A stretch of DNA of 64,000 nt from positions 1 to 64,000 of IMG/VR virus record IMGVR_UViG_3300035181_002074; one strand, given 5' to 3'. The stretch is from a virus. Under the pieces are notes generated by a model. It saw only the letters and a list, made by a program, of their open reading frames with translations, searched no databases and was not told the DNA's origin. Of this stretch, positions 18,658-36,677 are shown piece after piece. The translations under genes were made by a program, and so were the position numbers. Positions within the stretch are counted from its first letter, which is position 1, and the number at the start of each line of letters is the position of its first letter.

Positions 18658-18799
18658 CCTCTTTTAAAATTGCTATATTGTAGACGTGTGGGTCGAATAA
18701 CGTCGCTTGAAATGGATATTGGGCTTCTTCACCACCATCATCTATTATGTCATAGCTATTAGGCAGGATTATTATCCCGTAATTTCTAATTGGTGTCAT
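18635..18799 (-). CDS. micro-gene, array III, NIA subfamily (54 aa)
   Basis: N-terminus MTPIRNYGIIILPNSYDIID, motif DDGGEE, C-terminal strand PHVYNIAILKEV. Belongs with the genes at 18982, 19172 and 19341, which share NYGI/NIGI, a D-D/G turn and IYNIA. Carries a promoter in its 3' end. Confidence 0.65.
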   Translation of the reverse strand: MTPIRNYGIIILPNSYDIIDDGGEEAQYPFQATLFDPHVYNIAILKEVDETKKE

Positions 18800-19004: not shown

Positions 19005-19179
19005 ATTTTTCTCCTATTGCTATATTGTAAATTTTTATGGATTTTTCGCCTTCTGGTGTATTAGTAAATGCATACGGGGTACTGGGGTTTCGTAACGTTT
19101 TATCGTCCGTTATTGGATAATAATAAGTTTTACTTACAATCATGATACCATAATTAAACAAAACTTTGAATTTAGTCAT
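18982..19179 (-). CDS. micro-gene, array III, NIA subfamily (65 aa)
   Basis: MTKFKVLFNYGIMIVSKTYY at the start, turn PITDDKT, C-terminal strand SIKIYNIAIGEKYE, then a basic tail. The start overlaps the upstream stop. The tail overlaps the following gene's leader by 23 bases. Confidence 0.65.
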   Translation of the reverse strand: MTKFKVLFNYGIMIVSKTYYYPITDDKTLRNPSTPYAFTNTPEGEKSIKIYNIAIGEKYENKPKR

Positions 19180-19354
19180 AAACCGCCAAGTTATATATCA
19201 CATTAAGCTCTGCCGCGATGCTGTCGTATAATAGTTCATCTATATTACTGAAATTTATTTGGACATGGGGATTCATTCCACCGTCATTCACTATATGAAA
19301 ACCTGCAGAGCGGATTGCAACCGCATAATTGAATGTAACTTTACTCTTCGCCAT
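19172..19354 (-). CDS. micro-gene, array III, NIA subfamily (60 aa)
   Basis: MAKSKVTFNYAVAIRSAGFH, turn NDGGMNP, C-terminal strand NVIYNLAVYD. Clearly related to its two neighbours. Confidence 0.65.
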   Translation of the reverse strand: MAKSKVTFNYAVAIRSAGFHIVNDGGMNPHVQINFSNIDELLYDSIAAELNVIYNLAVYD

Positions 19355-19523
19355 TTATTATTACCCAATCCCCTAAGAAGGCGATGTTGTATATCTTTGC
19401 TGCTTTGTTGCTCATAGCCTGTCCAAATGATGTATCAGGATTGATACCGTCATCGGTAACCATAAGGTACGGTACTTCACGTCGATGATACATAATAATC
19501 CCGATGTTGAATACAACCTTCAT
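19341..19523 (-). CDS. micro-gene, array III, NIA subfamily (60 aa)
   Basis: Start at the ATG that overlaps the upstream gene: MKVVFNIGIIMYHRREVPYL, turn TDDGINP, C-terminal strand AAKIYNIAFLGDW. The in-frame start at 19565 would lie far inside the upstream membrane-protein gene. Confidence 0.65.
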   Translation of the reverse strand: MKVVFNIGIIMYHRREVPYLMVTDDGINPDTSFGQAMSNKAAKIYNIAFLGDWVIINGEE

Positions 19524-19687
19524 GCAGTTACCTGAGCCAACCAATACAATGGAGCCCCAATCCAACCAAATAAAGCCATAGACCAGAATTCATCTGATTT
19601 GCCTGCCACGACATAGTAATACATGTAAGTAAAACATGTGAGATAGTATGATAAATATACGGCACTGGCAATTAAAAAGGTCTTCAC
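19520..19687 (-). CDS. small membrane protein, GTG start
   Basis: 55 residues with two membrane segments (TFLIASAVYLSYYLTCF and WSMALFGWIGAPLYWLA). The promoter TTGACA-N17-TACACT places the transcript start about at the GTG at 19687, so translation from a leaderless GTG is proposed; the ATG at 19708 lies upstream of the expected transcript start. Confidence 0.5.
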   Translation of the reverse strand: MKTFLIASAVYLSYYLTCFTYMYYYVVAGKSDEFWSMALFGWIGAPLYWLAQVTA

Positions 19688-19694
19688 TTGGGTT

Positions 19695-19723
19695 AGTGTA
19701 TCATTCATAGACAATAATGTCAA
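19695..19723 (-). promoter_or_regulatory. early promoter, leaderless type, inside a micro-gene
   Basis: TTGACA-N17-TACACT with TGA before the -10 box. The -35 box codes for Val-Asp in the C-terminus QVDIIVYE of the upstream micro-gene. Confidence 0.55.
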
Positions 19724-19856
19724 CCTGTTTTTGAATTGATCTGTGCCGCCCGATATTGTCCAAATCCTCCGACTTAAACCCAGTATAGATTTCCCATTTT
19801 CTACCATATATCGACCGCATCCAAAATACGACTTCTATTCGGTATTTAAACTTCAT
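19701..19856 (-). CDS. micro-gene, array III (51 aa)
   Basis: MKFKYRIEVVFWMRSIYGRK, WEIYTGF, C-terminus KQVDIIVYE. Carries the next promoter in its end. Confidence 0.65.
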   Translation of the reverse strand: MKFKYRIEVVFWMRSIYGRKWEIYTGFKSEDLDNIGRHRSIQKQVDIIVYE

Positions 19857-20020
19857 GGCAATATCCTTATGCTATATACCTTTTGTTCTGTTATTCCTGT
19901 AATCCATTCTGTCAGTGTCGCTATATTACGGGTGAAAATATGGTAGTTACTGTAACGATCCCATCTATACGCCTTTTTGCGAAATACATATATACCATAT
20001 TGGCAAATATTATTATTCAT
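19853..20020 (-). CDS. micro-gene, array III (55 aa)
   Basis: MNNNICQYGIYVFRKKAYRW at the start, C-terminal strand QKVYSIRILP. ATGAATAA overlaps the upstream TAA. Confidence 0.65.
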   Translation of the reverse strand: MNNNICQYGIYVFRKKAYRWDRYSNYHIFTRNIATLTEWITGITEQKVYSIRILP

Positions 20021-20159
20021 AAATCCTTATAAGCCATTCAGCCTTGCAATATGACAATTCACTTAGATTCGCATGTGGTACTTCTGTGCCCCATCGAGCA
20101 AGGTTCCAGCTACCGCCTTTCCAGTTGGTAATTGCAATAGTAACTAAATGGTTATTCAT
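20013..20159 (-). CDS. micro-gene, array III (48 aa)
   Basis: MNNHLVTIAITNWKGGSWNL at the start, C-terminal strand AEWLIRIYE. Three bases separate it from the tiny gene upstream. Confidence 0.65.
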   Translation of the reverse strand: MNNHLVTIAITNWKGGSWNLARWGTEVPHANLSELSYCKAEWLIRIYE

Positions 20160-20162
20160 ATG

Positions 20163-20219
20163 TTATTCGTAATGGTATGTTGGTCGAATAGAAATAGCAT
20201 AACGGTATAAAGGTTCCAT
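20163..20219 (-). CDS. candidate 18-residue micro-gene
   Basis: MEPLYRYAISIRPTYHYE. The ATG shares a base with the upstream stop (TAATG). It has the family's YRYAISI start and a YE end without a middle, so it may be a deleted member. Confidence 0.35.
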   Translation of the reverse strand: MEPLYRYAISIRPTYHYE

Positions 20220-20437
20220 TATTCAAAATTCACGGTTAGGTAGTCATTGTATCCATTAGCAACCATTTCCTTAGCAGTAGCCAAGGCAGCTTTACCAGCT
20301 GGGGTGATCATATTCATTTCTTCCAACCATTGGGTCTCAGGTGTAACCAATCTCAAGTGCCCACGGCGTGGAGCAGATAATTCAGGGTTATTGTTAACGA
20401 TCAAAGTAAATTTTGGGGCTGGATTAGTTTGTTTCAT
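20219..20437 (-). CDS. small protein of unknown function
   Basis: 72 residues: MKQTNPAPKFTLIVNNNPEL, a basic loop (APRRGHLRLV) and a C-terminal helix (AGKAALATAKEMVANGY). Start chosen behind the promoter 20454-20482 and the GAGGTA ribosome site; the in-frame ATGs upstream lie in or before the promoter. It uses the same promoter-leader as the gene at 13496, so the two are probably co-regulated. Confidence 0.6.
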   Translation of the reverse strand: MKQTNPAPKFTLIVNNNPELSAPRRGHLRLVTPETQWLEEMNMITPAGKAALATAKEMVANGYNDYLTVNFE

Positions 20438-20453
20438 AGTGTACCTCATAAAT

Positions 20454-20482
20454 AGAATATCATCCTTTATCCGAAATGTCAA
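20454..20482 (-). promoter_or_regulatory. early promoter with leader
   Basis: TTGACA-N17-TATTCT followed by ATTTATGAGGTA, identical in layout to 13514-13542. Lies in the 3' end of the upstream micro-gene (VDISDKG). Confidence 0.65.
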
Positions 20483-20660
20483 CATAAAAATTATATATTT
20501 TTGCTACCATGCTTTGAATAACCACATGCTTGTCGATTCGCGGGTGATATGGATGAGCTGAAACCCAATCCCCTATTAGATAGGTGCCGCTACGCGACCC
20601 AACATGACGTGCGTATCGTTTATTGTGCAAACTTATTTTATACCGCTGCGTTACTTTCAT
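20460..20660 (-). CDS. micro-gene, array III (66 aa)
   Basis: MKVTQRYKISLHNKRYARHV, LIGDWVSAHPY, C-terminal strand AKIYNFYVDISDKG. The three-base gap to the upstream gene is filled by CCC. Confidence 0.65.
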   Translation of the reverse strand: MKVTQRYKISLHNKRYARHVGSRSGTYLIGDWVSAHPYHPRIDKHVVIQSMVAKIYNFYVDISDKG

Positions 20661-20663
20661 GGG

Positions 20664-24564: not shown

Positions 24565-27500
24565 ATGGCAGTTAAACGCAGACTGAAGCTCTTCTCAAGT
24601 GCTCGCCTCGACATCCCACATTTAAGATCAACAGAGTCAGGCGTTGCCAGTGACTTTGATAGTGCATTACGTGGACTCGTTACTGGATTAAATCAACCGT
24701 ATGTTATTCGCGGTTTTGATCTCGTTATTCCTAATGCTGCTATCCCTGCAACTTCTTTAGAAATCAAAGTATCTGATTCAGCTGTGCTACATGCAACGGC
24801 TGCTGAAGCTGGAACTATCCTTAGTGTTGCTGCTGGTACAGTAAATGAAATTCTATCACCAACTAATACTAAAGTGTTTGGCGCATTCCAAAACGGTGTA
24901 GCCAATTACGTTTCATTAGCTTATCGTCGTCGCACTGATCCAACTACTGTTGACCAAGTTGCTGGATGGTCTGAGTCACAAAAGATTGAATACCAACGTT
25001 CAGTTCCAACCGGTGATATATTAGAATACCAATTCGTTATCAGTACGTCAGGATTCTCTACTAACTTACCTTTATACATTGTAGGCACGACTTCGACCGG
25101 TGCTGTGCAATACGCTACGAAAGCTGCCCCCAACTTATTCCGCCTTGGACGTGGTGGTGCCGTACCTGATCCATATTATACATTCAATTACCACAATCAA
25201 AACAATAATTCACAATCACCTTCACAACCTCGCAGAGAATGGATTAATAATAGTCCATCATTAACTCCTAACCCAGTTACCGTATCACCGGGCGATCCAA
25301 CTAGCGCATTCCAGTATGGCGATTTCAATATTGCTAATATGAAAGAGTGGATGGATGCTATCATGAGTCGATTCAAGGAATTGACCGGTAGTACGTATTG
25401 GTATTTGGATTCCGCACTATCTGCAGGTTCACCAAATCTTTTCGACACATGGTATGATTCACTTGGTTCAGTAATGACTGGTAGCGGATCTATCTCATAC
25501 AACCTAGTACTTGAAGCAGCTCAACCAACATTTGGTGAGTTCCAATCCTTTTTCACTGATAGCGAAATCCTTGCCGGTGATTCTTATGTAGTTGGCCAGA
25601 CATCCGGTAACAGAGCCAACATTAGCGCGTTCAATGCTAACCAGCTTATCATTAATTCAATGTTGCGCCAAAACTTCATTGCTAATGAAACACTTTACAA
25701 TCGTCGTCTATATAGACCTGATCTAGTTAAGTTTGATCTATACAATACTGCCGATGCATTAGCTGCCAATAAGATTGGTGTGTTACGTCGCAAAGCTAAT
25801 GGATCTGGTACCCCACAATCTATTTCTTCTTGGTCTTATACTCAAATAGGTTCTTTATCTGCTGCTGACTGTACAGCTAACTTTGGTTCAGCTCACGGAT
25901 TTAACGTAGGCGACTATGCATTCTTCAGTGGCTTAGCGTGTACAACTAATCAGCCATCTGGCGTCTACATGATTAAAGAAGTGCCTACCAGTACTTCTTG
26001 TGTATTTTCTGTTTCATATCTACCAACTGGTGCGGCTACCGTATCATCCGCAACGGCTGCATTAGATACTGCAACACATCATCCTTATCTGCCAACATTT
26101 GTAGTTCAATCATGGTCATATGTAGGTACGGCTATTAAGGTACAAGCACTTGGCCATAACTTCTTAACCGGTGACAAGATTACTATCGGTGGATTGGCTT
26201 GTACAACTAACGCACCCAATGGTCGTTTCACTGTAACGGTTAACCCAGATAACTCTATCAACTTTACTGCAACAGCTCCAACTGGTACAGCAACCGTTAG
26301 TTCGGCATTCGTGCAAGCTAATACTGCCGCATTCCAGTTAACTGTATCGGGCACTAATCCAAATAATTATGATGTTATTGATGTGGTGGCTACAGCTGCT
26401 TCTGATACTGATTTCAATTACGTTATTGGTGCAATCTCTTTACCGACTATTCCTGTTGGCACTGGCGCGATTACTTTAGATGGTGTAGTAGCAGTATCTT
26501 CAGTGCTTGACCCAACTATCGTTTCAAGTATTACTTGGAATGGTACAGCGATCGTAGTTAATACTGCTACTCCTCATGGATATGCTAGTATCGCTGGCCC
26601 AACTGATTTCACGATATACGGTAATCAATCTTTGTCCGCATACATCACTACTTACAGTGGCGTATCAATTGTAAACATTAGTTCAAATGTATTCCAGATC
26701 ACCGGCGGCAATGTTGCTAATCACGGTACTTACACTAACGGCGGCAGTGATTTAACTTACGCACGTTACCCAAATAATCCTTACGCTGGTCCTATCCAAT
26801 GGGATAGTGACATGATTATTAAAGGTATCATCGGTGACAAGTACATGCGCATCCCACAAACTGCGACTGCTACTGGAACTCAACTAGCTAACAAATTTAA
26901 TATCAATGGCCTAACTGGTACAGCTTATTTACAAGACGGTGAAGTAGCATACATTATCATGGAGCGTAATAAGCTTCTTGCTAATGGTGCAAGCTATTCA
27001 ACTGCTGGTGGTAGCGCACAAGTTACTGGTTCAACTTCTCCAACATACGTAGGTGGTACTCGCTTACGTGTAGGTGATTTCGTTAAGTGGGAAGATGAAA
27101 GCGAAGCTTCTTGGCTACGTGTATCTAATCAAGGTTACCCTTCATTAAACGAAGGCGATCAATTGCCATCATTAGCTACTAACTTCTATTTAGTGACTGA
27201 CAATGGACAACCGCCTACTAGTTCACAACGTCCAGCTAAAACTGGCCGCATGGTTTACACTAGAGGAACTTATCAAGAAGTTATCGTTAGTAAGCATTGG
27301 CAAGTAACCCAAAGCGCTGACATCTATTGGATCGCTGTACGTCGTGACAATGGTGCATTAAAATCTAAAGTATATCTCAAGGCATTGGAACTAGAACTAG
27401 GCGAAGTTAGACAGATCAATGATAATGCCCCAAGCAATCTATTAACTTATACTGGAGCTGGTAGCGAAGCGGCTATCAATCCAAACTATAGTGTTATTGA

Positions 27501-29118
27501 TCAAACAGGTGCTTACCAAGAATCACAAGTCTTAGCAGTAGGCAGCAATGCAGCTGACAAGGATAACAGAACTAGACAAGTTACATTTGATTCTGCACCT
27601 GAATTAGATTTCCAAGCTGGCGACAAGATCGTTAAGACTGTTGGATTAACTCATTACAGTTATTTAATCAAGCATGTTATCACTTCTCGTACAGTGATCA
27701 TGGCTGATGATATTTCTACATTAGCTGCTGGTGATACGGTAACATATTACAGAGTGAATCATAATATCAACGATTCAGATAATCTTACATTGGCTATCCG
27801 TAAAGAAGATCGTGATCTAGCTAAAGTAAATACTGCTTTAACTCGCCCGATCTATGACGAAACAGTTTACTTGCAAAAGATGAACGTAACTGGATCTGGC
27901 TTCATTAAGTCTGGTTCATACATTTACAAAGGCACACAAGATCAACCGACTGCTTTAGCATGGGTACTCCATGGAACTAGCAATCAAACTGAAACTATCG
28001 AAGGATTCGGTATCAGTATGCCGGGTAGTAAATTTGGCGCATCATCCATTTTAGTGCATATCCTCAGTGGGACATTCTCCCATGGTGATAGTGTTTACCA
28101 AAATGGCGCATCTACTTATACCATCAATAACGTTGGTAACCCAGCTTTCCCAAGCCCAGCGATCTTAGCTGCTAGCAATGTGGAAATCGTATTACCACCA
28201 AACAGACGTACCCAAGTTGTTGGGTCAAGTTATGTGGTATGGCCAACTAACTGTGCATACAAAGCTTCCTTAGATGATAATTTATGTGGTGAAGAACTAT
28301 TAGTTATTGCCAATGATTCTATCCGCCAAGCTAACTTGGATTACTCCGAGACATATGGTGGACCGAAGGGTAAGATTGAAATATCCCGTAACTTACCAAT
28401 CAACACTCGTTTACGTTTCCGTATCTTGCCAGCTTATGGCTCTGCTAATGTTAGCTCATCCAGTTCTACTAGTTTACAATTAGCTTATGACGGTGGCAAT
28501 ATCGTTTCCATCTTATCTGGTCGTCCAATCGATGTCCGCGTAAGTGATAGAACAACTGGTATTGCACTAGACGGTACATTAAGTATTGATGCAGTTTACA
28601 GCGGTAATGTAGTTGGTGGTATCATGCCTAAGACTGATCGCAGTTTCGACATTGGTACTGAAGCACTGAAGGTTAATCAGATTTGGACAGCAATCCAAAA
28701 CATTAAAACTCATACAACTCATCCATCATCTGGTAACACTAAGTTTACCGCTGTGGGTACATCTACTAATAACTCTGCTTACATTATCCCATCATCCAAT
28801 ATTACTTTGGCGCAAGGTGAAGCAATGCAAGTTGTGGTGACTGGTGTGGCTCGCCGTTCAGAAGGTGTTGCGACGCCAACTACTCAAGGGTCTGCGTCCT
28901 TCAGAATAGAAGGTTGCTTTTACCGTGAAACAGCTGGTAGCACCCAAGCTGCTGGGAGTCCATACAATCTGGTTAGTGGTGCTTACGGTGACGGTATAAG
29001 TTACGCCCTTACATTTGGTACTGTAGGTAATGATGTGGTAGCCGTTGCCTTTGGTGAGAGTGCTGCTATTGAGTGGGCGATCAGTGTAGAATATCAAAAA
29101 GTTCGCCTTCCTAGCTAA
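24565..29118 (+). CDS. large tail structural protein with HG-turn modules
   Basis: 1517 residues, strand-rich, Thr/Ser/Ala-rich. No signal peptide. Two to three HG-turn modules near 436, 522 and 657 (GSAHGFNVGDYAFFSGLACT, LGHNFLTGDKITIGGLACT, ATPHGYASI) repeat each other and resemble those in the genes at 5095 and 21426. The C-terminus is a globular strand domain ending VEYQKVRLPS. Probably an extended tail component linking baseplate and fibres. Its last 8 bases overlap the end of the convergent array IV. Confidence 0.6.
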   Translation: MAVKRRLKLFSSARLDIPHLRSTESGVASDFDSALRGLVTGLNQPYVIRGFDLVIPNAAIPATSLEIKVSDSAVLHATAAEAGTILSVAAGTVNEILSPTNTKVFGAFQNGVANYVSLAYRRRTDPTTVDQVAGWSESQKIEYQRSVPTGDILEYQFVISTSGFSTNLPLYIVGTTSTGAVQYATKAAPNLFRLGRGGAVPDPYYTFNYHNQNNNSQSPSQPRREWINNSPSLTPNPVTVSPGDPTSAFQYGDFNIANMKEWMDAIMSRFKELTGSTYWYLDSALSAGSPNLFDTWYDSLGSVMTGSGSISYNLVLEAAQPTFGEFQSFFTDSEILAGDSYVVGQTSGNRANISAFNANQLIINSMLRQNFIANETLYNRRLYRPDLVKFDLYNTADALAANKIGVLRRKANGSGTPQSISSWSYTQIGSLSAADCTANFGSAHGFNVGDYAFFSGLACTTNQPSGVYMIKEVPTSTSCVFSVSYLPTGAATVSSATAALDTATHHPYLPTFVVQSWSYVGTAIKVQALGHNFLTGDKITIGGLACTTNAPNGRFTVTVNPDNSINFTATAPTGTATVSSAFVQANTAAFQLTVSGTNPNNYDVIDVVATAASDTDFNYVIGAISLPTIPVGTGAITLDGVVAVSSVLDPTIVSSITWNGTAIVVNTATPHGYASIAGPTDFTIYGNQSLSAYITTYSGVSIVNISSNVFQITGGNVANHGTYTNGGSDLTYARYPNNPYAGPIQWDSDMIIKGIIGDKYMRIPQTATATGTQLANKFNINGLTGTAYLQDGEVAYIIMERNKLLANGASYSTAGGSAQVTGSTSPTYVGGTRLRVGDFVKWEDESEASWLRVSNQGYPSLNEGDQLPSLATNFYLVTDNGQPPTSSQRPAKTGRMVYTRGTYQEVIVSKHWQVTQSADIYWIAVRRDNGALKSKVYLKALELELGEVRQINDNAPSNLLTYTGAGSEAAINPNYSVIDQTGAYQESQVLAVGSNAADKDNRTRQVTFDSAPELDFQAGDKIVKTVGLTHYSYLIKHVITSRTVIMADDISTLAAGDTVTYYRVNHNINDSDNLTLAIRKEDRDLAKVNTALTRPIYDETVYLQKMNVTGSGFIKSGSYIYKGTQDQPTALAWVLHGTSNQTETIEGFGISMPGSKFGASSILVHILSGTFSHGDSVYQNGASTYTINNVGNPAFPSPAILAASNVEIVLPPNRRTQVVGSSYVVWPTNCAYKASLDDNLCGEELLVIANDSIRQANLDYSETYGGPKGKIEISRNLPINTRLRFRILPAYGSANVSSSSSTSLQLAYDGGNIVSILSGRPIDVRVSDRTTGIALDGTLSIDAVYSGNVVGGIMPKTDRSFDIGTEALKVNQIWTAIQNIKTHTTHPSSGNTKFTAVGTSTNNSAYIIPSSNITLAQGEAMQVVVTGVARRSEGVATPTTQGSASFRIEGCFYRETAGSTQAAGSPYNLVSGAYGDGISYALTFGTVGNDVVAVAFGESAAIEWAISVEYQKVRLPS

Positions 29119-29257
29119 TATTAATATAATAGAGTTTCGTGATTGAGCCATCAAACTCGAATTGAGTTTCTGGGTAATTGATCTGCTGATGTCTCCATTT
29201 CATTACTTTAAATCCCCAGCCCCACATCTTAATACGATACTTGCTATAAGTTACCAT
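29111..29257 (-). CDS. micro-gene, array IV (48 aa)
   Basis: Last gene of array IV. MVTYSKYRIKMWGWGFKVMK at the start, C-terminal strand KLYYINIS. ATGGTAA overlaps the upstream TAA. Confidence 0.7.
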   Translation of the reverse strand: MVTYSKYRIKMWGWGFKVMKWRHQQINYPETQFEFDGSITKLYYINIS

Positions 29258-29409
29258 TCAATTTGCTCCCCAATATTAATATAGTAAACCTTTCGTGCAG
29301 CCGTGAAGGTATGGAACACGGCATTGATCATATTAGCTTCATTATCATCGTATGCAGTAAAGCGTAATATCAATCCATTTTTACGGATAATTATCCTGTA
29401 CTTATTCAT
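29251..29409 (-). CDS. micro-gene, array IV (52 aa)
   Basis: MNKYRIIIRKNGLILRFTAY at the start, C-terminal strand KVYYINIGEQIEW. Close relative of the gene at 30322, which ends KVYYINIGTEGVW. This is the clearest statement of the family pattern: strand, turn, strand, variable helix-like middle, closing strand. Confidence 0.75.
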   Translation of the reverse strand: MNKYRIIIRKNGLILRFTAYDDNEANMINAVFHTFTAARKVYYINIGEQIEW

Positions 29410-29539
29410 AGCGTATATTCCAAGCTTTGTAGATGTTGTATACAACCATATCTCCAGCGGTTATGTATATGTCTAATCTCCCCCAGTTTGGCATAACAAC
29501 GTCACCACCACGATATTGTATCACTGAATAGCTATTCAT
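29402..29539 (-). CDS. micro-gene, array IV (45 aa)
   Basis: MNSYSVIQYRGGDVVMPNWG at the start, C-terminal strand KAWNIRYE. Confidence 0.7.
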   Translation of the reverse strand: MNSYSVIQYRGGDVVMPNWGRLDIYITAGDMVVYNIYKAWNIRYE

Positions 29540-29672
29540 AATTCATGATCCACGCTTTCTGGATACTATTTAACTTCATGTCATAGAAGTTTGGTGAATG
29601 GAGCCGAAAACTAAAATGCTTGACCATGTGGTGACCCCATGAGTATTGACACACGTAATAAGATCTAATCAT
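29532..29672 (-). CDS. micro-gene, array IV (46 aa)
   Basis: MIRSYYVCQYSWGHHMVKHF at the start, C-terminal strand KAWIMNYE, matching the ending of its neighbour. Confidence 0.7.
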   Translation of the reverse strand: MIRSYYVCQYSWGHHMVKHFSFRLHSPNFYDMKLNSIQKAWIMNYE

Positions 29673-29794
29673 AAGTAAATCCTATATACCACTCTAATTG
29701 GTGCATAAATTGTTGGCTCACCTTCTAGGTGTCTTGGCCATTTCGTAATAAACCAGCAGTGATGTCGCACTACGAGAGAGTATTGCTTAATCAT
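29669..29794 (-). CDS. micro-gene, array IV (41 aa)
   Basis: MIKQYSLVVRHHCWFITKWP at the start, C-terminal strand RVVYRIYL. ATGA overlap with the next gene. Confidence 0.7.
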   Translation of the reverse strand: MIKQYSLVVRHHCWFITKWPRHLEGEPTIYAPIRVVYRIYL

Positions 29795-29927
29795 AATTGA
29801 TTACCCATGTGCGTTTTATTTGATATTTTCGCATTCCGTCCTCACCGAAGTAAATGTTCGGGCTAAGCCAGCTATTCACATTGATTAAACCGGAATCAAA
29901 TTCTGCAACGGAATAAGCTCTAATCAT
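29787..29927 (-). CDS. micro-gene, array IV (46 aa)
   Basis: MIRAYSVAEFDSGLINVNSW at the start, C-terminal strand RTWVINYD. Confidence 0.7.
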   Translation of the reverse strand: MIRAYSVAEFDSGLINVNSWLSPNIYFGEDGMRKYQIKRTWVINYD

Positions 29928-30079
29928 TCTAAAACCTCCACCTGTAGGCAACGTTTAGCATATTGATATTCATATAATGCCCTTGCTGGCTGCCAAGCGG
30001 GATTCTTTTCAATCCAACGAGACTCGCCCAAGAATATTAATATTCTGTAAATGCTTAAGTGTATATCTGAATTACCCAT
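29924..30079 (-). CDS. micro-gene, array IV (51 aa)
   Basis: IHLSIYRILIFLGESRW near the start, C-terminus KRCLQVEVLE. Confidence 0.65.
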   Translation of the reverse strand: MGNSDIHLSIYRILIFLGESRWIEKNPAWQPARALYEYQYAKRCLQVEVLE

Positions 30080-30195
30080 AACTTGGTCTCCCTTGGATGC
30101 ATTGGCGTTGGGTCATCTTCCCTGTAATCATAAAGCTTAAACAAAGTGTCGATCCACACAATCGCGTAGTATTGCACATCATGCATGGTGATCAT
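30055..30195 (-). CDS. micro-gene, array IV (46 aa)
   Basis: MITMHDVQYYAIVWIDTLFK at the start, C-terminal strand KLWVIQIYT. Overlaps the next gene by 25 bases, longer than usual. Confidence 0.65.
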   Translation of the reverse strand: MITMHDVQYYAIVWIDTLFKLYDYREDDPTPMHPRETKLWVIQIYT

Positions 30196-30328
30196 CCTTT
30201 GGGCGAAATGTTATCTCATACAATTTCAACGGGCAACCTTGCAGCAATTGCCATGCAATGTTATCCTTGATCGCCCAGCCATTTGGGTATATCCATACGC
30301 GGTAAAAAATTGGCGTCCTTGTTACCAT
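30179..30328 (-). CDS. micro-gene, array IV (49 aa)
   Basis: MVTRTPIFYRVWIYPNGWAI at the start, KLYEITFRPKDDHHA at the end. The final six residues extend past the usual closing strand. Confidence 0.65.
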   Translation of the reverse strand: MVTRTPIFYRVWIYPNGWAIKDNIAWQLLQGCPLKLYEITFRPKDDHHA

Positions 30329-30480
30329 ACTCCCTCTGTACCAATATTGATGTAATACACCTTCACATCGTCACCATACAAGACAAACGCTACCTCCGGC
30401 TGGTTCGAAGTATTAATATCAAACCTGACGATACGTGATGCCCCATTATGATAGCAGATGCGGTATTTCCTGTGAATCAT
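30322..30480 (-). CDS. micro-gene, array IV (52 aa)
   Basis: MIHRKYRICYHNGASRIVRF at the start, C-terminal strand KVYYINIGTEGVW. Paralogue of the gene at 29251. Confidence 0.75.
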   Translation of the reverse strand: MIHRKYRICYHNGASRIVRFDINTSNQPEVAFVLYGDDVKVYYINIGTEGVW

Positions 30481-30608
30481 TCCATCACCACCGTGTAAAA
30501 GACTACTTCATCTTTGCGCATATGGCGAACTGGCCTTGGTGTATGAGTCCAAGCACCAATCAGATACCGATTATTATGTATGTAAACACGGTAAAACTTA
30601 ATCTTCAT
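30477..30608 (-). CDS. micro-gene, array IV (43 aa)
   Basis: MKIKFYRVYIHNNRYLIGAW at the start, C-terminal strand VVFYTVVME. Confidence 0.7.
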   Translation of the reverse strand: MKIKFYRVYIHNNRYLIGAWTHTPRPVRHMRKDEVVFYTVVME

Positions 30609-30741
30609 AAGTCACCATCACTGAAAATAACGACATACCAACATAGAAGAAGCTTGGTGGACTCAATAAGCTACTATAACGATAGATACATTGGCCACCA
30701 ACAGGAAGGGGAAAAACACGATATGTTGCTGATTTAGTCAT
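30598..30741 (-). CDS. micro-gene, array IV (47 aa)
   Basis: MTKSATYRVFPLPVGGQCIY at the start, C-terminal strand FSVMVTYED. Confidence 0.65.
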   Translation of the reverse strand: MTKSATYRVFPLPVGGQCIYRYSSLLSPPSFFYVGMSLFSVMVTYED

Positions 30742-30860
30742 ACTAACTCGATTCTCCAGCCCAATCTGTTTCCTCGTCCGCCATCAAGCAAGACTATTAC
30801 ATAAAGACAATTCAGTGAACTGTCGGAATAAGCTGGCTTGTAGATTCTATAATCCTTCAT
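30738..30860 (-). CDS. micro-gene, array IV (40 aa)
   Basis: MKDYRIYKPAYSDSSLNCLY at the start, C-terminal strand LGWRIELV. ATGA overlap downstream. Confidence 0.65.
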   Translation of the reverse strand: MKDYRIYKPAYSDSSLNCLYVIVLLDGGRGNRLGWRIELV

Positions 30861-31011
30861 ATATAATCTCTACCATAAAAATCGTGTGGATGTGATGCAT
30901 ATTGCGCAAAGTAATTTCTGGGTCATTGTATCCGAAACGAGTTCCACCTCGTTGCATGACAAAATTTCCTCGCCAAAATGGTTCATGACTGCATGCGATT
31001 CGGTATATCAT
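30847..31011 (-). CDS. micro-gene, array IV (54 aa)
   Basis: MIYRIACSHEPFWRGNFVMQ at the start, C-terminal strand TIFMVEIIYEGL. Confidence 0.65.
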   Translation of the reverse strand: MIYRIACSHEPFWRGNFVMQRGGTRFGYNDPEITLRNMHHIHTIFMVEIIYEGL

Positions 31012-31169
31012 TCAATCACCATCACATTATAGATCTTATTATGCAAGTCATACAAATTGATCGGCAAATTATAATATCCCTGATATTTAAAGATCGTCCA
31101 CCAACCACCTTGCTCGCAGTAAACATCGTCTTGCCTGTTAAATAGTATCACACGGTAATTCTTATACAT
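31008..31169 (-). CDS. micro-gene, array IV (53 aa)
   Basis: MYKNYRVILFNRQDDVYCEQ, GGWWTIFKY, C-terminal strand NKIYNVMVIE. Confidence 0.7.
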   Translation of the reverse strand: MYKNYRVILFNRQDDVYCEQGGWWTIFKYQGYYNLPINLYDLHNKIYNVMVIE

Positions 31170-31317
31170 ATTCTATCTCTATCAACCATGCGTTCTCGGC
31201 GTCATCTACGAACCATAATAGATCTTGCGTATATCGGTGCAAATTCTCTGCATCGATGATATACCTTAACCTACTTATGCTCACGTAATCTGGGTAATCC
31301 ACAATCCTAAATATCAT
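31162..31317 (-). CDS. micro-gene, array IV (51 aa)
   Basis: MIFRIVDYPDYVSISRLRYI at the start, C-terminal strand NAWLIEIEYV. Confidence 0.7.
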   Translation of the reverse strand: MIFRIVDYPDYVSISRLRYIIDAENLHRYTQDLLWFVDDAENAWLIEIEYV

Positions 31318-31492
31318 AATCCACCATCACATAGTAAGCTTTCTGGACTGGAAATTGCTCCATGAATATTGCTGGCGAGAAGAAATCAGCGAACACGACA
31401 GTATCCCCGCTTTGCCTATAACGAGAGGATACGATTGATACGCTAGCATCAAATAAGGCAACTCGGTAAGCTTGTTTTGGATATGACTTCAT
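31307..31492 (-). CDS. micro-gene, array IV (61 aa)
   Basis: MKSYPKQAYRVALFDASVSI at the start, C-terminal strand KAYYVMVDYDI. One of the few members above 60 residues. Confidence 0.7.
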   Translation of the reverse strand: MKSYPKQAYRVALFDASVSIVSSRYRQSGDTVVFADFFSPAIFMEQFPVQKAYYVMVDYDI

Positions 31493-31647
31493 AAAATTTT
31501 AACCTCGAAATAGCGGCTAGTGGGGATAACACCTTGTGTAAACAGGCTATAAGTTTTACCAATGCCTTGTGACCCGAAGTCAATTAGCCGGTACCCTTTT
31601 TCTCGTTTGTACTTTTTCGCTTTAAAGATGATGTAATAAAATCTCAT
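31489..31647 (-). CDS. micro-gene, array IV (52 aa)
   Basis: MRFYYIIFKAKKYKREKGYR at the start, C-terminal strand RYFEVKIL. Unusually basic. Confidence 0.65.
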   Translation of the reverse strand: MRFYYIIFKAKKYKREKGYRLIDFGSQGIGKTYSLFTQGVIPTSRYFEVKIL

Positions 31648-31802
31648 CCCAGCCCCCGAATCAAATAAACCTTCTCTGCGTCGGCTTTTAATAAATATTC
31701 TTGTCTAACGTGATAATCATACGACTGATGGATACGCAGTTCATTTGTAATTATGCACCAGTATACAGTAACGTAGCTCTCAGGAACAAAGAAGTCTATC
31801 AT
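31644..31802 (-). CDS. micro-gene, array IV (52 aa)
   Basis: MIDFFVPESYVTVYWCIITN at the start, C-terminal strand EKVYLIRGLG. Confidence 0.65.
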   Translation of the reverse strand: MIDFFVPESYVTVYWCIITNELRIHQSYDYHVRQEYLLKADAEKVYLIRGLG

Positions 31803-31960
31803 CCGACCACCTCTATGGTAAATATCCTGCGCCCGTGTCCAGATTTTCCACTCAAAATAATCTCAGGGTTAATAAAAAAAGAAGCATACCGTGCAATAGC
31901 AATAGTATATGAGGCGCTCGCGTAGATTAAAATGCGGTAGACTACCCGATTAGGCTTCAT
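31799..31960 (-). CDS. micro-gene, array IV (53 aa)
   Basis: MKPNRVVYRILIYASASYTI at the start, C-terminal strand RRIFTIEVVG. Confidence 0.7.
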   Translation of the reverse strand: MKPNRVVYRILIYASASYTIAIARYASFFINPEIILSGKSGHGRRIFTIEVVG

Positions 31961-32127
31961 AAGATATGTACCGCAATGATTTTGGCTACCTTATAATGTT
32001 TAGAGCCCCAATGAATGGAAATAGCATTCTCCAGTATATCCTCTGATGTATGCAAAACATATTTCCCCGTCGTGAAAGATATAATCCTGAAAGTCTTAAT
32101 CTGATGGCATTTATACGGTTTAATCAT
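31957..32127 (-). CDS. micro-gene, array IV (56 aa)
   Basis: MIKPYKCHQIKTFRIISFTT at the start, C-terminal strand AKIIAVHIL. The ATGATTAA start lies in the end of the membrane-protein gene upstream. Confidence 0.65.
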   Translation of the reverse strand: MIKPYKCHQIKTFRIISFTTGKYVLHTSEDILENAISIHWGSKHYKVAKIIAVHIL

Positions 32128-32314
32128 GCTTATTCAACAGGGAATTCATTTTACCTGTTACGTAAGTATATGAATCAATCACTCCAACTACGTATCCGTA
32201 AACATACCAAAACACGCCCATGAAAGCTAGCTTACTGGCAATAGTCCAATCCGTTTCTTGTAGGAAGGTTAACGTAGCCCATGCACATATCAATGTTATT
32301 ATTATTCTTATCAT
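32120..32314 (-). CDS. small membrane protein
   Basis: 64 residues, two hydrophobic segments (MIRIIITLICAWATLTF and ASKLAFMGVFWYVYGYVVGV). Start at 32314, one base after the stop of the coiled-coil gene; a longer frame up to 32359 would overlap that gene. Not a micro-gene family member. Unknown function. Confidence 0.65.
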   Translation of the reverse strand: MIRIIITLICAWATLTFLQETDWTIASKLAFMGVFWYVYGYVVGVIDSYTYVTGKMNSLLNKHD

Positions 32315-32315
32315 A

Positions 32316-32639
32316 TTATTCCTTAGCCTCTTTGGCCGCTTTCTTTGCTGCTTTTTCAAGCTTAGCGTTTTCTTTCTCGATATCTTCTTGGGTTTGGAGT
32401 ACGGATTCGAAACGTTTCACACCGGCTGGCCTAAAAACTGTATTTTTCTCGGAGAAGTTATCCACGATGGACACGAAACGTGGGGTCGCTTCGTCAGTTG
32501 CGAATTTCTTATTACCAAAATACCCACATTGGGTAAATTCCACCGTCAAGGCATCAAGTTCTTCGTACAGAGGTTTTACAGCCTCAAGTTGGTCTTTGAT
32601 CTGAGCGATACGATTAACGATTTCATTTATACGTGACAT
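32316..32639 (-). CDS. coiled-coil protein heading array IV
   Basis: 107 residues. N-terminal heptad pattern (INEIVNRIAQIKDQLEAVKP), a central globular part with one Cys, and a highly charged C-terminal helix (NAKLEKAAKKAAKEAKE). It has a full promoter and an AAGGAG ribosome site, so it is the first gene of the transcript that continues into array IV. Function unknown. Confidence 0.7.
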   Translation of the reverse strand: MSRINEIVNRIAQIKDQLEAVKPLYEELDALTVEFTQCGYFGNKKFATDEATPRFVSIVDNFSEKNTVFRPAGVKRFESVLQTQEDIEKENAKLEKAAKKAAKEAKE

Positions 32640-32651
32640 AATAAGTCTCCT

Positions 32652-32828
32652 TTAATTAGCATACCATTCTTTTTGATCCGAGTCAAGTACTATTTCAAAT
32701 CGTCGATGTTGTTGATGTTTATAGTAATTACACATGACCGTATAATACAGCTCTTCATGGTTATCAACGATTCTGATTTCATTACCATATCTGGGGATGT
32801 TAAAGAATATGCTGTACCTAGTCCTCAT
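32652..32828 (-). CDS. micro-gene, array V (58 aa)
   Basis: MRTRYSIFFNIPRYGNEIRI at the start, closing strand RFEIVLDSDQKEWYAN. The last 14 codons carry the -35 and -10 boxes of the promoter for the coiled-coil gene. Confidence 0.65.
   Translation of the reverse strand: MRTRYSIFFNIPRYGNEIRIVDNHEELYYTVMCNYYKHQQHRRFEIVLDSDQKEWYAN
32658..32686 (-). promoter_or_regulatory. early promoter for array IV, inside a micro-gene
   Basis: TTGACT-N17-TATGCT with TGG before the -10 box, then an 18-base leader with AAGGAG before the ATG at 32639. Confidence 0.65.
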
Positions 32829-32964
32829 ATCGGATCTCGATTTGATAGTGTCTTGGATAATCCATAAATGTTTGCCATATTACGTAGAAAGATGAGTTGC
32901 TAGCCCTGATTACATATTTTTCTTTATAACGATATGCGATGGTGTATTCGTGGATTTGTTTCAT
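32818..32964 (-). CDS. micro-gene, array V (48 aa)
   Basis: MKQIHEYTIAYRYKEKYVIR at the start, C-terminal strand HYQIEIRYED. Confidence 0.7.
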   Translation of the reverse strand: MKQIHEYTIAYRYKEKYVIRASNSSFYVIWQTFMDYPRHYQIEIRYED

Positions 32965-33098
32965 TCGATTGTTACCACAAATCGTACATCATATGTTGCC
33001 CATCGCTTTAATAAGTCAAGCCAACCATCACTATTATCCCATATATGGACTCCTTGACGATCATCAATATTGATTACATACATTGTAGGTTGATTCAT
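32961..33098 (-). CDS. micro-gene, array V (45 aa)
   Basis: MNQPTMYVINIDDRQGVHIW at the start, C-terminal strand VRFVVTIE. Confidence 0.65.
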   Translation of the reverse strand: MNQPTMYVINIDDRQGVHIWDNSDGWLDLLKRWATYDVRFVVTIE

Positions 33099-33229
33099 AA
33101 GATATTAATCTGATAATGGTGATCACTGTTATTAAAGAGTTTCCAGATGACGTACATGTCTTCATTATCGTGACCTATCATGTAATTTAAAGTTAATAAA
33201 AGGATGGTGTATTCTTTTGGTGGCTTCAT
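33095..33229 (-). CDS. micro-gene, array V (44 aa)
   Basis: MKPPKEYTILLLTLNYMIGH at the start, DMYVIWKLF, C-terminal strand HYQINIL. Related to the gene at 32818 (EYTI ... YVI ... HYQI). Confidence 0.7.
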   Translation of the reverse strand: MKPPKEYTILLLTLNYMIGHDNEDMYVIWKLFNNSDHHYQINIL

Positions 33230-33378
33230 AAAAAATCAATCTGCCACATTTTATCAATCTTTCCTTGGACAAGGTCGATGTGCGCAGCGACCCAGTGTAA
33301 ATAATGTTCCAAGGCACTAATGTTCCAAGGCAATTTAGACCAAGGCGACTTATTATAAATACGATATGACCTAATCAT
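33226..33378 (-). CDS. micro-gene, array V (50 aa)
   Basis: MIRSYRIYNKSPWSKLPWNI at the start, C-terminal strand KMWQIDFL. Confidence 0.65.
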   Translation of the reverse strand: MIRSYRIYNKSPWSKLPWNISALEHYLHWVAAHIDLVQGKIDKMWQIDFL

Positions 33379-33556
33379 TGATGGTGACCTCATAAATTTT
33401 GGTGCTAACTAAATGCAGAACTATGCTTCTATTAAACTCCACCCCTACTCCAGCTACATTCGTTTTGATGCTGCTCCATCTGGCACTGACTTTGCCACTT
33501 AGTATTGTCCATCTCGCTCCAATGCGTAAATAAATGCGGAATGATCTTTTATTCAT
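33371..33556 (-). CDS. micro-gene, array V (61 aa)
   Basis: MNKRSFRIYLRIGARWTILS at the start, C-terminal strand STKIYEVTIND. Confidence 0.7.
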   Translation of the reverse strand: MNKRSFRIYLRIGARWTILSGKVSARWSSIKTNVAGVGVEFNRSIVLHLVSTKIYEVTIND

Positions 33557-33743
33557 ACCACTCCACTTGCCAAACGATATACGGCGCGTCAGAAAGCTGC
33601 AAGCTATCTACCATAACATCATGAGACCCGCGAATAAATCCACCCATAAATATGGGGGATATGCTGTAGTATTTATGATTATATGTATGTACGATATGCC
33701 CACGAATGCGAACTGCACGTAGGTCTTGGTCATTCAAGCTCAT
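33549..33743 (-). CDS. micro-gene, array V (64 aa)
   Basis: MSLNDQDLRAVRIRGHIVHT at the start, C-terminal strand YIVWQVEWYE. Paralogue of the gene at 33872, which shares RAVRIR and IWQVEWYE. Confidence 0.7.
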   Translation of the reverse strand: MSLNDQDLRAVRIRGHIVHTYNHKYYSISPIFMGGFIRGSHDVMVDSLQLSDAPYIVWQVEWYE

Positions 33744-33879
33744 CGACAATTACCTCCCAGAACTTGCGGTTATGTGAATGTACTTTGAATACAATTTCGG
33801 GGTTCATCCGATATACTCCACTGATTGACCAAATAGCCCAAGACACATTGTTTGTGATAACACGATAAGATCTACTCAT
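33730..33879 (-). CDS. micro-gene, array V (49 aa)
   Basis: MSRSYRVITNNVSWAIWSIS at the start, C-terminal strand KFWEVIVDELE. Lies between the two paralogues at 33549 and 33872 but is not itself a copy of them. Confidence 0.7.
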   Translation of the reverse strand: MSRSYRVITNNVSWAIWSISGVYRMNPEIVFKVHSHNRKFWEVIVDELE

Positions 33880-34042
33880 ACCATTCCACCTGCCAAATTC
33901 TAATCATAGGTTTATATAAGCAATCTGTCAACCTCATATGGCCAGTCCCAGAGAACTTGGTATATATTGACGACATGAAAAACTTGGTTCTCTTGTGTCT
34001 TTTATATTCCCTGATCCTTACTGCCCGTGTGTTTTTACTCAT
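33872..34042 (-). CDS. micro-gene, array V (56 aa)
   Basis: MSKNTRAVRIREYKRHKRTK at the start, C-terminal strand RIWQVEWYE. Strongly basic first half. Confidence 0.7.
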   Translation of the reverse strand: MSKNTRAVRIREYKRHKRTKFFMSSIYTKFSGTGHMRLTDCLYKPMIRIWQVEWYE

Positions 34043-34205
34043 AAGTTATACCATAGATCGTTTGAACATTTTCAGAGCCTATTATAATATTTTTTTCGCG
34101 GAAAACCCCTAGCATGCTGTTGATCATATCATACTCCTTACCCCAAACACCAGATACTTGCACTAATGAATCGCTCACATATATTAAATATCCTTGCTTA
34201 TTCAT
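34035..34205 (-). CDS. micro-gene, array V (56 aa)
   Basis: MNKQGYLIYVSDSLVQVSGV at the start, C-terminal strand QTIYGITYE. Confidence 0.65.
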   Translation of the reverse strand: MNKQGYLIYVSDSLVQVSGVWGKEYDMINSMLGVFREKNIIIGSENVQTIYGITYE

Positions 34206-34359
34206 TAACAATCTCGATTTCGTAGCCTCTATATATCCAATCAGATTTAAGTACGTGCGACTGCCTAATAATAAATGGATCTGGGTACCAGCCTTGGTAT
34301 ATTATTACCATGTTATCCGTAACGCTCATCATGTCGTAAATTCGCAAAACTTTATACAT
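34198..34359 (-). CDS. micro-gene, array V (53 aa)
   Basis: MYKVLRIYDMMSVTDNMVII at the start, C-terminal strand GYEIEIVNE. Confidence 0.65.
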   Translation of the reverse strand: MYKVLRIYDMMSVTDNMVIIYQGWYPDPFIIRQSHVLKSDWIYRGYEIEIVNE

Positions 34360-34531
34360 ATTTTACTACCCAAATCTTTGTGATGAGTTGGCCGTTAAAA
34401 GTTAAAGGCACATATATATTGTTTAATTCTCTCACCCATAATACACCGATATCGCTGGTACCACTCCATGCAATGATTCCATGACTCTTAGCGCAGTTAT
34501 TAATGATGTATTGGGTAACTGGTTTATTCAT
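34352..34531 (-). CDS. micro-gene, array V (59 aa)
   Basis: MNKPVTQYIINNCAKSHGII at the start, C-terminal strand TKIWVVKYV. Confidence 0.65.
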   Translation of the reverse strand: MNKPVTQYIINNCAKSHGIIAWSGTSDIGVLWVRELNNIYVPLTFNGQLITKIWVVKYV

Positions 34532-34667
34532 AAGTAAACTCGTATAGTTTCCGAAACGTACTACCTAAGTGAATTGCCCTGTAATTTGCTATTGCGTCAA
34601 AATACCAGCCGAATCCCCATTCTCCATTGCGATAGATAATAACACCATGTGGCAACCTGTTACCCAT
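34524..34667 (-). CDS. micro-gene, array V (47 aa)
   Basis: MGNRLPHGVIIYRNGEWGFG at the start, C-terminal strand RKLYEFTYE. Confidence 0.7.
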   Translation of the reverse strand: MGNRLPHGVIIYRNGEWGFGWYFDAIANYRAIHLGSTFRKLYEFTYE

Positions 34668-34812
34668 AAGTTACCTCGACAGTGAAAATCTTGGTGTGGC
34701 GGGGTGACATTCTAGTTTCATCACCGAGATAAGCGAATTTACCTTCTTCGTCTAACGCGTAGATTTCGTAAGCACGATTCTTGTATAGGTATATGCGGGT
34801 AGATTTAATCAT
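34660..34812 (-). CDS. micro-gene, array V (50 aa)
   Basis: MIKSTRIYLYKNRAYEIYAL at the start, C-terminal strand TKIFTVEVTYG. The ATGATTAA overlap with the upstream gene decides the start against the more upstream ATG at 34842. Confidence 0.7.
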   Translation of the reverse strand: MIKSTRIYLYKNRAYEIYALDEEGKFAYLGDETRMSPRHTKIFTVEVTYG

Positions 34813-34951
34813 ATCGCACCACATAGATCTTGATTCGATCATTCGCAGCTATGCTAAATACAGAGCCATCATATATATAACTGTGATATATTGTATACTC
34901 ATTACGACTTATCATCACACGATACTCGAAAGATGGTGGAATTTTATTCAA
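34805..34951 (-). CDS. micro-gene, array V, TTG start (48 aa)
   Basis: TTG in the stop region of the upstream gene (TTTGAATAA). FEYRVMISRNEYTIYHSY and C-terminal strand IKIYVVRYD fit the family only if this upstream start is used; the ATG at 34915 would remove the first strand. Confidence 0.55.
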   Translation of the reverse strand: MNKIPPSFEYRVMISRNEYTIYHSYIYDGSVFSIAANDRIKIYVVRYD

Positions 34952-35108
34952 AGGTCACCGTCCATATACACTGAACCGGCAAACCTTTGGAAGTCAAAGG
35001 CTGTTTTATGAACGTATCAACCATGGACGCAGCTATTTCTGGGTATCCATCCCAGTGTTTGGCAGCATAGCCCGTGCCATTTGTATATACCATGTATGAT
35101 TTATTCAT
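34944..35108 (-). CDS. micro-gene, array V (54 aa)
   Basis: MNKSYMVYTNGTGYAAKHWD at the start, C-terminal strand QCIWTVTFE. Confidence 0.65.
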   Translation of the reverse strand: MNKSYMVYTNGTGYAAKHWDGYPEIAASMVDTFIKQPLTSKGLPVQCIWTVTFE

Positions 35109-35181
35109 ATTCTATCCTGTACCCGCGAGTTACATACGTATTAGTGAAATAATTGATGCTATAATAAAACATTCTATTCAT
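35101..35181 (-). CDS. micro-gene, array V, short (26 aa)
   Basis: MNRMFYYSINYFTNTYVTRG followed by YRIEYE: the first and last strand without a middle, possibly a deletion derivative. Confidence 0.5.
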   Translation of the reverse strand: MNRMFYYSINYFTNTYVTRGYRIEYE

Positions 35182-35300
35182 TGAATAGTGGCCACTGCTT
35201 TTAATCCATATATCTTGCCAGAATCTAGTGTCCACAGCAACCACGGAAAGCCCAACAAAAAGCGACTGCCATCCCAATATTCATGACGGCAGATGGCCAA
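35178..35300 (-). CDS. candidate micro-gene, array V, TTG start (40 aa)
   Basis: AICRHEYWDGSRFLLGF near the start and GKIYGLKAVATIQ at the end. It overlaps the Cys-rich gene upstream by 76 bases in another frame and needs a TTG start, so the call is weak. Confidence 0.35.
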   Translation of the reverse strand: MAICRHEYWDGSRFLLGFPWLLWTLDSGKIYGLKAVATIQ

Positions 35301-35395
35301 TTAGTTGGTGGCTCAGGTTTATCATTTTGGCAGGTATCACATTCGCAGTCACAACCATGGCAATTTTTCACACAATCACATTCTTGTTCACCCAT
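35225..35395 (-). CDS. Cys-rich mini-protein heading array V
   Basis: 56 residues. Seven Cys in the first 27 residues in C-x-C, C-x2-C and C-x-C-x-C-x2-C spacing (MGEQECDCVKNCHGCDCECD), likely a metal site, then a Pro-rich linker and a hydrophobic Cys-containing end (MNIGMAVAFCWAF). First gene behind the promoter 35405-35433; the leader is about three bases long. Confidence 0.55.
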   Translation of the reverse strand: MGEQECDCVKNCHGCDCECDTCQNDKPEPPTNWPSAVMNIGMAVAFCWAFRGCCGH

Positions 35396-35404: not shown

Positions 35405-35433
35405 ACTATACCACTAAACCAGATCTAAGTCAA
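35405..35433 (-). promoter_or_regulatory. early promoter for array V
   Basis: TTGACT-N17-TATAGT with TGG before the -10 box. One base separates its -35 box from the plus-strand late motif at 35435, so the two promoters are back to back. Confidence 0.6.
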
Positions 35434-35452: not shown

Positions 35453-36100
35453 ATGGCAACCACCAAACAAGACATTATCATTATTGGTAAGGGGGCGATG
35501 AACTCAAATGCATCGTCTGCCCAGATATTTGCCAGCAAAAGCGCTGTCAGTTTTTGGGATACCGCAATTACTTACAACATTGAAACATGTGTTGAATATT
35601 CAGGTAACATCTGGAGATCATTAACTAATTCAAACATAGCTAACAATCCAGCTTCTTCCCCAACCCAATGGGAATTAATCCTAAAAAACACCAAAGACGG
35701 TGATGCCTGTTTCGTTATCAATGGGGCATCTTCTGATCTAATGATGCGCGTCAATTCAATCTGGGAGACTTTGGGCAATAAACCTTACATCATTAGCCTA
35801 AACGATAACCAAGTTTCGCCTACTTCCGCTTTTACTTATTTGGGCACAGCATTCCCATATGCCCAAATCGAGCTAAGAATCAGACGCAATAACTCTTATT
35901 CTTCAGCGTTTAAGAAGACTTACGAGGTTTTAAATGATGGAACTACTGATTTACAATTTTCTGCTGACGGGGTTAGCATTGGTGCTGATACTGGGGTGGT
36001 CATAACCCCTTCAATTACCGCTGGAACGGTATCTTTTGATTACACCAGCACTAACTTATCACAAGCAATTTCACTCGAATATACATTGCGTGGGTTTTAA
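35453..36100 (+). CDS. tail-fibre accessory protein with carbohydrate-binding-like module
   Basis: 215 residues. About 28-75 form a carbohydrate-binding-like module of the CBM5/12 type: SFWDTAITYNIETCVEYSG, IWRSLTNSN and a closing SPTQWEL with the conserved aromatic positions. The C-terminal 80 residues are strand-rich and end SLEYTLRGF. It opens the fibre block. The HNH gene starts two bases after its stop. Confidence 0.6.
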   Translation: MATTKQDIIIIGKGAMNSNASSAQIFASKSAVSFWDTAITYNIETCVEYSGNIWRSLTNSNIANNPASSPTQWELILKNTKDGDACFVINGASSDLMMRVNSIWETLGNKPYIISLNDNQVSPTSAFTYLGTAFPYAQIELRIRRNNSYSSAFKKTYEVLNDGTTDLQFSADGVSIGADTGVVITPSITAGTVSFDYTSTNLSQAISLEYTLRGF

Positions 36101-36101
36101 T

Positions 36102-36677
36102 ATGAAACAATGTAATACTTGCAATTTAACTAAAAACCTAGATTCTTTTCATAAAAATAAGAATTGCCTTGACGGTCGTCAATATAAGTGTAAACTATGC
36201 GTCAATACATATCTGAAAGCGTATTATTCCCAAAACAAGGAACAAGTAAAAGAAAAAGTTAATAATTACCGTCAAAATAACCCCACTAAGATTTCGGCAA
36301 GGAAAAAGTTATATCGTCAAAACAATATGCAAAAAGTAAAATCTGGTTTGCATAATTGGTATATGAATAATAAATCGAAATCTGCCGAAACTACAAAAGC
36401 ATATAACAAGGCGCATCCAGCACAGGCTTTGGCGCGATGTAATAAAAGACGAGCATCTAGGCTAAATGCTATACCTAGATGGCTAACCAAAGAAGATTTA
36501 TTAAAAATTAAGGAATTTTACATAGAGGCCAAACGACTAGAGTTATTGACTGGGGGTAAATACCATGTAGATCATATTATCCCACTTCAAGGTGAGGCGG
36601 TTCGTGGGCTACATGTACCTTGGAATTTACAAGTTATTCCTGCCTACCAAAATATAATAAAAGGGAACAAGATTTAA
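36102..36677 (+). CDS. HNH homing-type endonuclease
   Basis: 191 residues. Zinc ribbon at the start (MKQCNTCNLTKNLDSFHKNK ... CKLC), a long basic helical linker (residues about 40-125), and an HNH core near 165-190: YHVDHIIPLQGEAVRGLHV and WNLQVIPAYQNIIKGNKI with the His-Asp, Asn and final Asn positions. Free-standing nucleases of this type cut fibre or intergenic loci of related phages. It lies between two fibre genes, two bases after one stop and overlapping the next start (TAATG), with more A-rich codon use than its neighbours, consistent with insertion. The longer frame from 36036 would overlap the upstream gene; 36102 is chosen. Confidence 0.8.
   Translation: MKQCNTCNLTKNLDSFHKNKNCLDGRQYKCKLCVNTYLKAYYSQNKEQVKEKVNNYRQNNPTKISARKKLYRQNNMQKVKSGLHNWYMNNKSKSAETTKAYNKAHPAQALARCNKRRASRLNAIPRWLTKEDLLKIKEFYIEAKRLELLTGGKYHVDHIIPLQGEAVRGLHVPWNLQVIPAYQNIIKGNKI

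Follow-up and report, generated by a model that had tools for sequence, protein, structure and literature searches.

Divergent paralogues that expand in a lineage-specific manner within variable regions are typical of the multigene families of large DNA viruses. Among phages, the host-takeover module of SPO1 consists of 26 mostly small early genes, including characterised members, which carry the ribosome-binding sites of highly expressed genes (PMC6873191). Amplification of counter-defence genes has been described in T4, where recombination drives the amplification of tifA (PMC9391042), and in T6, where it is driven by the endonuclease SegB (PMC13096335). The locus described here lies in the IMG/VR record IMGVR_UViG_3300035181_002074, a tailed phage of 160,612 bases encoding baseplate, tail-fibre, terminase, portal, major-head and DNA polymerase III (Pol III) genes, of which the first 64,000 nucleotides (nt) form the window analysed. 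The plus strand of the window carries its structural genes. Two tail-fibre-like genes bracket a minus-strand stretch in which 40 micro-genes tile positions 35181-29111 head-to-tail over 6.1 kb. As judged from sequence, this array consists of real translated genes, 38 of which form one divergent family within this phage.

The array genes belong to neither the SPO1 module nor the T4/T6 amplification systems by any test applied here, and these are the nearest working analogies. As in SPO1, many small genes without enzyme signatures are tightly clustered, here with candidate early-type promoters; unlike in SPO1, most are paralogues of one private family, are ~50 codons long and are coupled start to stop. 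Probable tandem growth in copy number in a tailed phage, with homing-type endonucleases nearby, recalls T4 and T6. However, the amplifications in those phages are recent, segmental and dose-raising, whereas the copies here are synonymously saturated and differ in sequence. The families of large DNA viruses differ in turn from these overlapping genes of ~50 codons, which form one coupled array whose family is replaced between related phages. What is new is that a single locus houses micro-protein families that are private to each lineage and interchangeable, and searches of the open-access literature found no account of such arrays.

The original prediction of chained micro-genes on the minus strand is borne out by the junctions. 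The genes span 26-64 codons, with the single exception of g18 (107 codons), and overlap at 37 of 39 junctions. Overlaps of 8 nt (n=17, e.g. ATGAATAA), 4 nt (n=12, ATGA) and 11 nt (n=3) are the most frequent, while those of 14 nt (n=2), 7 nt (n=2) and 25 nt (n=1) are rarer; the two non-overlapping junctions are gaps of 12 nt (before 32639) and 1 nt (before 32314). Overlaps of 8, 11 and 14 nt put neighbouring genes in one relative frame and those of 4, 7 and 25 nt in the other. These two relative frames, and the possession of its own start by each gene, rule out the decay of one long repeat-protein gene. The longest strict chain comprises 23 genes, or 24 if any start codon is allowed. In the dinucleotide-shuffle check that had been proposed, 300 dinucleotide-preserving shuffles gave chains of at most 5 genes from ATG starts (frames of at least 25 codons) or 7 from ATG, GTG or TTG, and the longest chain on the plus strand is 3.

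Paralogy is almost confined to the called frame, with 16 pairs at an expectation value (E) below 0.05 within this phage compared to 1 and 0 in the other two frames. The corresponding counts in a related phage, G008, are 125 in the called frame and 8 and 2 in the others. In similar pairs, identity at the first, second and third codon positions is 0.51, 0.54 and 0.32; because these pairs were picked for similar proteins, a bias towards the first two positions is built in, and the other-frame control guards against it. Identical residues are encoded by identical codons in 78 of 180 cases, where 75 are expected from codon usage, and the [YF]R[IV] and KR motifs are spelled by many synonymous codons. 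As amino acids are retained although synonymous positions have been randomised completely, the frames are evidently translated and selected as proteins. A chance run of open frames, in which few-stop minus-strand sequence mimics chained genes, could draw on the fact that the start/stop overlap alone forces some terminal residues. This is scarcely credible and is excluded by the 23-gene chain against a shuffle maximum of 7, the paralogy seen in the called frame only, the codon-position pattern and the family test that follows.

A common pattern, consisting of an N-terminal YR[IV] strand and a closing K.Y.I.YE strand, fits 38 of the 40 genes. The proposal that all the genes form one family thus stands for these 38 and fails for g18 and g19, which are unrelated. 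In a leave-one-out profile test, in which the null was shuffles of each member with the first three and last two residues fixed, 29 of the 38 members reached p≤0.05 and 21 reached p≤0.01, with nine not individually placed. Because the profile beats shuffles that fix the junction residues, the pattern is not made by the junctions only. The terminal β-strands originally read from hydrophobic alternation are supported by a period-two hydrophobic alternation at both protein ends (lag-2, z 2.8 each) that is absent from the other frames. The array proteins, of ~50 residues, contain about 3-fold more W and Y and 0.4-fold as much A as the products of large genes. An AlphaFold2 model of g31 is a three-stranded meander (predicted local distance difference test (pLDDT) 71, predicted template modelling score 0.43).

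The array proteins have no relative in Pfam, PHROGs, PADLOC or PDB sequences, and none of the 38 family members matches PADLOC-DB, which holds known anti-phage defence proteins. A fold search with both predicted models, g31 and a protein subset from the related phage G001, returned no significant match. The array was also considered as the target of a diversity-generating retroelement. This was rejected as no reverse transcriptase (PF00078) was found in this phage (G000), G001, G008 or G009; control genomes match. A role outside host takeover, such as superinfection exclusion, phage-phage competition or inhibition of the proteins of competing mobile elements, is improbable. Diversified paralogues do adjoin tail-fibre genes, a place suited to genes specific for receptors or competitors, but inspection by eye shows no obvious signal peptide or membrane pattern among the family members, g19 being the only clearly hydrophobic gene of the array.

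The unit begins upstream of 35181, with a promoter-like site followed by a Cys-rich head gene (Table 1) that has no PHROGs match at E≤0.001. At this site the first ATG lies 9 nt past the -10 element, leaving a very short leader or none. Extended -10 sigma-70-like sites number 15 on the minus strand of the window and 1 on the plus, with ~2.6 expected per strand, and several minus-strand blocks have a strong one at their head. This arrangement gives indirect support to the early expression that was originally proposed. At several promoter-like sites the ATG is only 4-9 nt past the -10, which fits leaderless or nearly leaderless transcripts. Sites of the form TTGACa-N17-TGGTATaaT with a start codon 4-9 nt downstream occur on the minus strand of the window and of two further records, L004 and L011, so that early transcripts may lack a leader across this group of phages. 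Information content upstream of starts is low in the window array, where a strong ribosome-binding site per gene is not seen; purine-rich sites upstream of starts are clearer in the G008 array.

Two relatives reached through the fibre gene evidently fill the same hot spot with arrays of other private families of the same design. G001, in which Pol III alpha is 69% identical to that of this phage, has micro-gene chains of 33, 25 and 18, plus more, around the same fibre gene. Its total is roughly 150-180, an approximate figure blurred by start choice and antisense frames, and the set analysed consists of 146 micro-proteins, one subset of which is predicted to fold as β-α-β-β (pLDDT 81). GIY-YIG and HNH homing-type endonucleases are present on the plus strand beside the G001 tail-fibre hot spot (L004 9279-10010 and L011 6785-7588).

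G008, with a fibre N-terminus 60% identical to that of this phage, encodes 43 members of a helical family genome-wide, ~31 of which lie at the same tail-fibre spot and on the same strand relative to the fibre gene. These micro-genes are ~60 codons long, start with M(K/R)KRxQI and are hydrophobic at every fourth residue (lag-4 z 9.9). Traces of duplication include an exact 33-nt repeat that spans two junctions and the expansion of a 12-nt repeat within one gene. In a micro-gene at L046 18542-18790 (minus), a 12-nt unit recurs ~14 times, encoding QLxY/N repeats; the product is perhaps a new helical protein from repeat expansion.

Of eleven other phage records, none is matched by the family profile of the window. 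The G008 profile (A8) finds just the pair of records that represent its own genome. Neither A1 nor A8 reaches beyond its own phage, and there is no cross-match among the G000, G001 and G008 arrays. The array family is thus private to this phage among the phages tested, and the idea of a single superfamily holds within this phage (29 of 38 by leave-one-out) and not beyond it, since the spot is occupied in relatives by private families of their own. The array was also proposed to be rapidly diversifying. Within an array this is not supported: the synonymous sites of the paralogues are fully randomised, so that the copies are old, and three assemblies, whose independence is not established, share the G008 array with 100% identity across 20.9 kb; records L046, L047 and L051 are identical to each other. 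The turnover that is apparent lies between phages, with array content replaced fast relative to the polymerase and fibre genes.

Other relatives differ at the hot spot, with ordinary small genes in L048 and no array in L044. Near the same hot spot, L044 contains three consecutive frames of 65-68 amino acids (aa) at 17902-18564 (plus) that have similar YxIYD ends and resemble paralogues. More distant records hold nothing comparable by the same criteria beyond small chance-level chains. Myxococcus phage Mx1 (OR576727), whose tail-fibre N-terminus, TerL, Pol III alpha and helicase mark it as a distant relative, showed no comparable array in the 40.8 kb that were compared, and the profile matched nowhere in its genome. 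An exact 33-mer search found the array in no other viral contigs, and single-protein searches with g31, the helicase and baseplate-J returned no relatives. The nearest match by TerL, L017, shares 5.9 kb at 100% identity and ends short of the array. A scan of genome contigs with fibre alignment identified no host or prophage. Relatives of g18, 46% identical, occur elsewhere in IMG/VR, where L123 and L124 carry them without such a micro-gene array.

The variety at this spot bears on two other accounts. In selfish or neutral expansion, a duplication-prone spot would gather tiny, near-functionless genes selected only for compatibility with translation, which for example avoids untranslated RNA on the early strand. 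Different unrelated families at the same spot, weak codon adaptation and the relatives without an array there are in keeping with this, but it is an unlikely explanation given that all frames are open at saturated synonymous divergence, that residue patterns are kept in the called frame only and that G001 gives over 20 kb to micro-genes despite the limits of phage packaging. Alternatively, the array proteins could co-assemble, each being a subunit that differs a little from the others and fits them through its edge strands or helices, into one large hetero-oligomer in the infected cell that could be a scaffold, filament or compartment. Strict co-translation, common strand ends, an aromatic-rich composition and the regular four-residue hydrophobic period of the G008 family would suit such an assembly. 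We consider it quite unlikely, as copies range from ~43 to over 140 across phages with differing folds and no hint of fixed stoichiometry, and the related L048 has ordinary small genes at the hot spot.

The favoured explanation, with a probability of about one half, is that the arrays are expressed early with translational coupling, encode small proteins that interact with the host and grew by tandem duplication, giving a repertoire resembling host takeover. The operon-like array of 38 paralogous micro-genes and two unrelated inserts would be transcribed early from host sigma-70-type promoters, its first gene would be read from an mRNA with hardly any leader, and ribosomes would move down the array by termination-reinitiation. 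Copies would have arisen by tandem duplication, perhaps aided by the adjoining homing-type endonucleases, and diverged around a constant β scaffold. Speculatively, and by analogy, each small protein may bind a different host target or defence component, making the array a takeover or counter-defence repertoire. A further, doubtful possibility is that the spot is a fixed slot in which each lineage keeps its own unrelated tiny-protein family (β, β-α-β-β or helical, in 40 to over 140 diverged copies), the whole family being replaced between lineages, as a counter-defence binding repertoire.

Several points weigh against host-interacting arrays of this kind. In the libraries searched, no anti-defence or takeover protein of known type is matched by any member, so that function is assigned by analogy, and the predicted fold of g31 is of only modest confidence with no solved-fold match. 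The promoters are consensus matches, and the link between endonuclease and array is one of proximity only. Codon usage is only weakly like that of large genes, the called frame being the best of three in 21 of 39 cases. Finally, close orthologues from which to derive a ratio of non-synonymous to synonymous substitution were not found.

Table 1. Features of the array and its surroundings in the window.
Feature	Position	Strand	Description	Basis
Promoter-like site	35405..35433	-	TTGACT-N17-TGGTATAGT, extended -10 sigma-70-like	Consensus match only
Head gene	35225..35395	-	56 aa; Cys-rich N-terminus, hydrophobic C-terminus; unrelated to array family	
First run, g1-g17	32652..35181	-	17 chained micro-genes, YR[IV]...K.Y.I.YE family	Coordinates and family test
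Second promoter-like site	32658..32686	-	TTGACT-N17-TGGTATGCT; precedes g18	
g18	32316..32639	-	107 aa; preceded by AAAGGAG; ordinary phage gene, unrelated to array family	
g19	32120..32314	-	64 aa; hydrophobic, probable membrane protein, unrelated to array family	
Second run, g20-g40	29111..32127	-	21 chained micro-genes of the family	Coordinates and family test
g31	30322-30480	-	Member of second run	Structure predicted
Tail-fibre-like gene	24565..29118	+	Left flank of array; marks hot spot in relatives	
Weak tail-fibre-like gene	35453..36100	+	Right flank of array	phrog_20878, E 3.7e-5
Endonuclease VII/HNH-like gene	36036..36677	+	Adjoins array	phrog_1035, E 2e-25
Further micro-genes	11477..12726	-	Similar design	Weak family score at 11598
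Further micro-genes	13897..15453	-	Similar design	
Further micro-genes	18635..20663	-	Similar design	Family scores at 18638, 18985, 19856, 20463
Further micro-genes	58127..59269	-	Similar design; interrupted by cold-shock-domain gene	

Outside the array, the other minus-strand blocks appear to hold weak relatives of the family plus other micro-genes. The cold-shock-domain protein (PF00313) amid the last of these is encoded at 58612-58809 (minus). A 421-aa frame at 15443-16708 (minus) combines an HNH/endonuclease VII-like part with a ClpP-like protease (PF00574), as if a protease gene had been fused with an endonuclease or had received one as an insertion. An early-strand block at 55114-56084 (minus) contains a dUTPase beside a ferritin-like/COQ7-like protein.

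Gene finders with length cut-offs would miss micro-proteins of this size. If the arrays are host-directed, up to ~1/6 of a genome would be given to small proteins absent from the searched family libraries, and the arrays would offer many candidate inhibitors of bacterial processes and defences in a small space. The fixed-slot repertoire, if true, would be a counter-immunity system without precedent in phages. Replacement of whole families at one locus makes a long-standing question, the origin of orphan phage genes and the reason for their great differences between relatives, open to testing.

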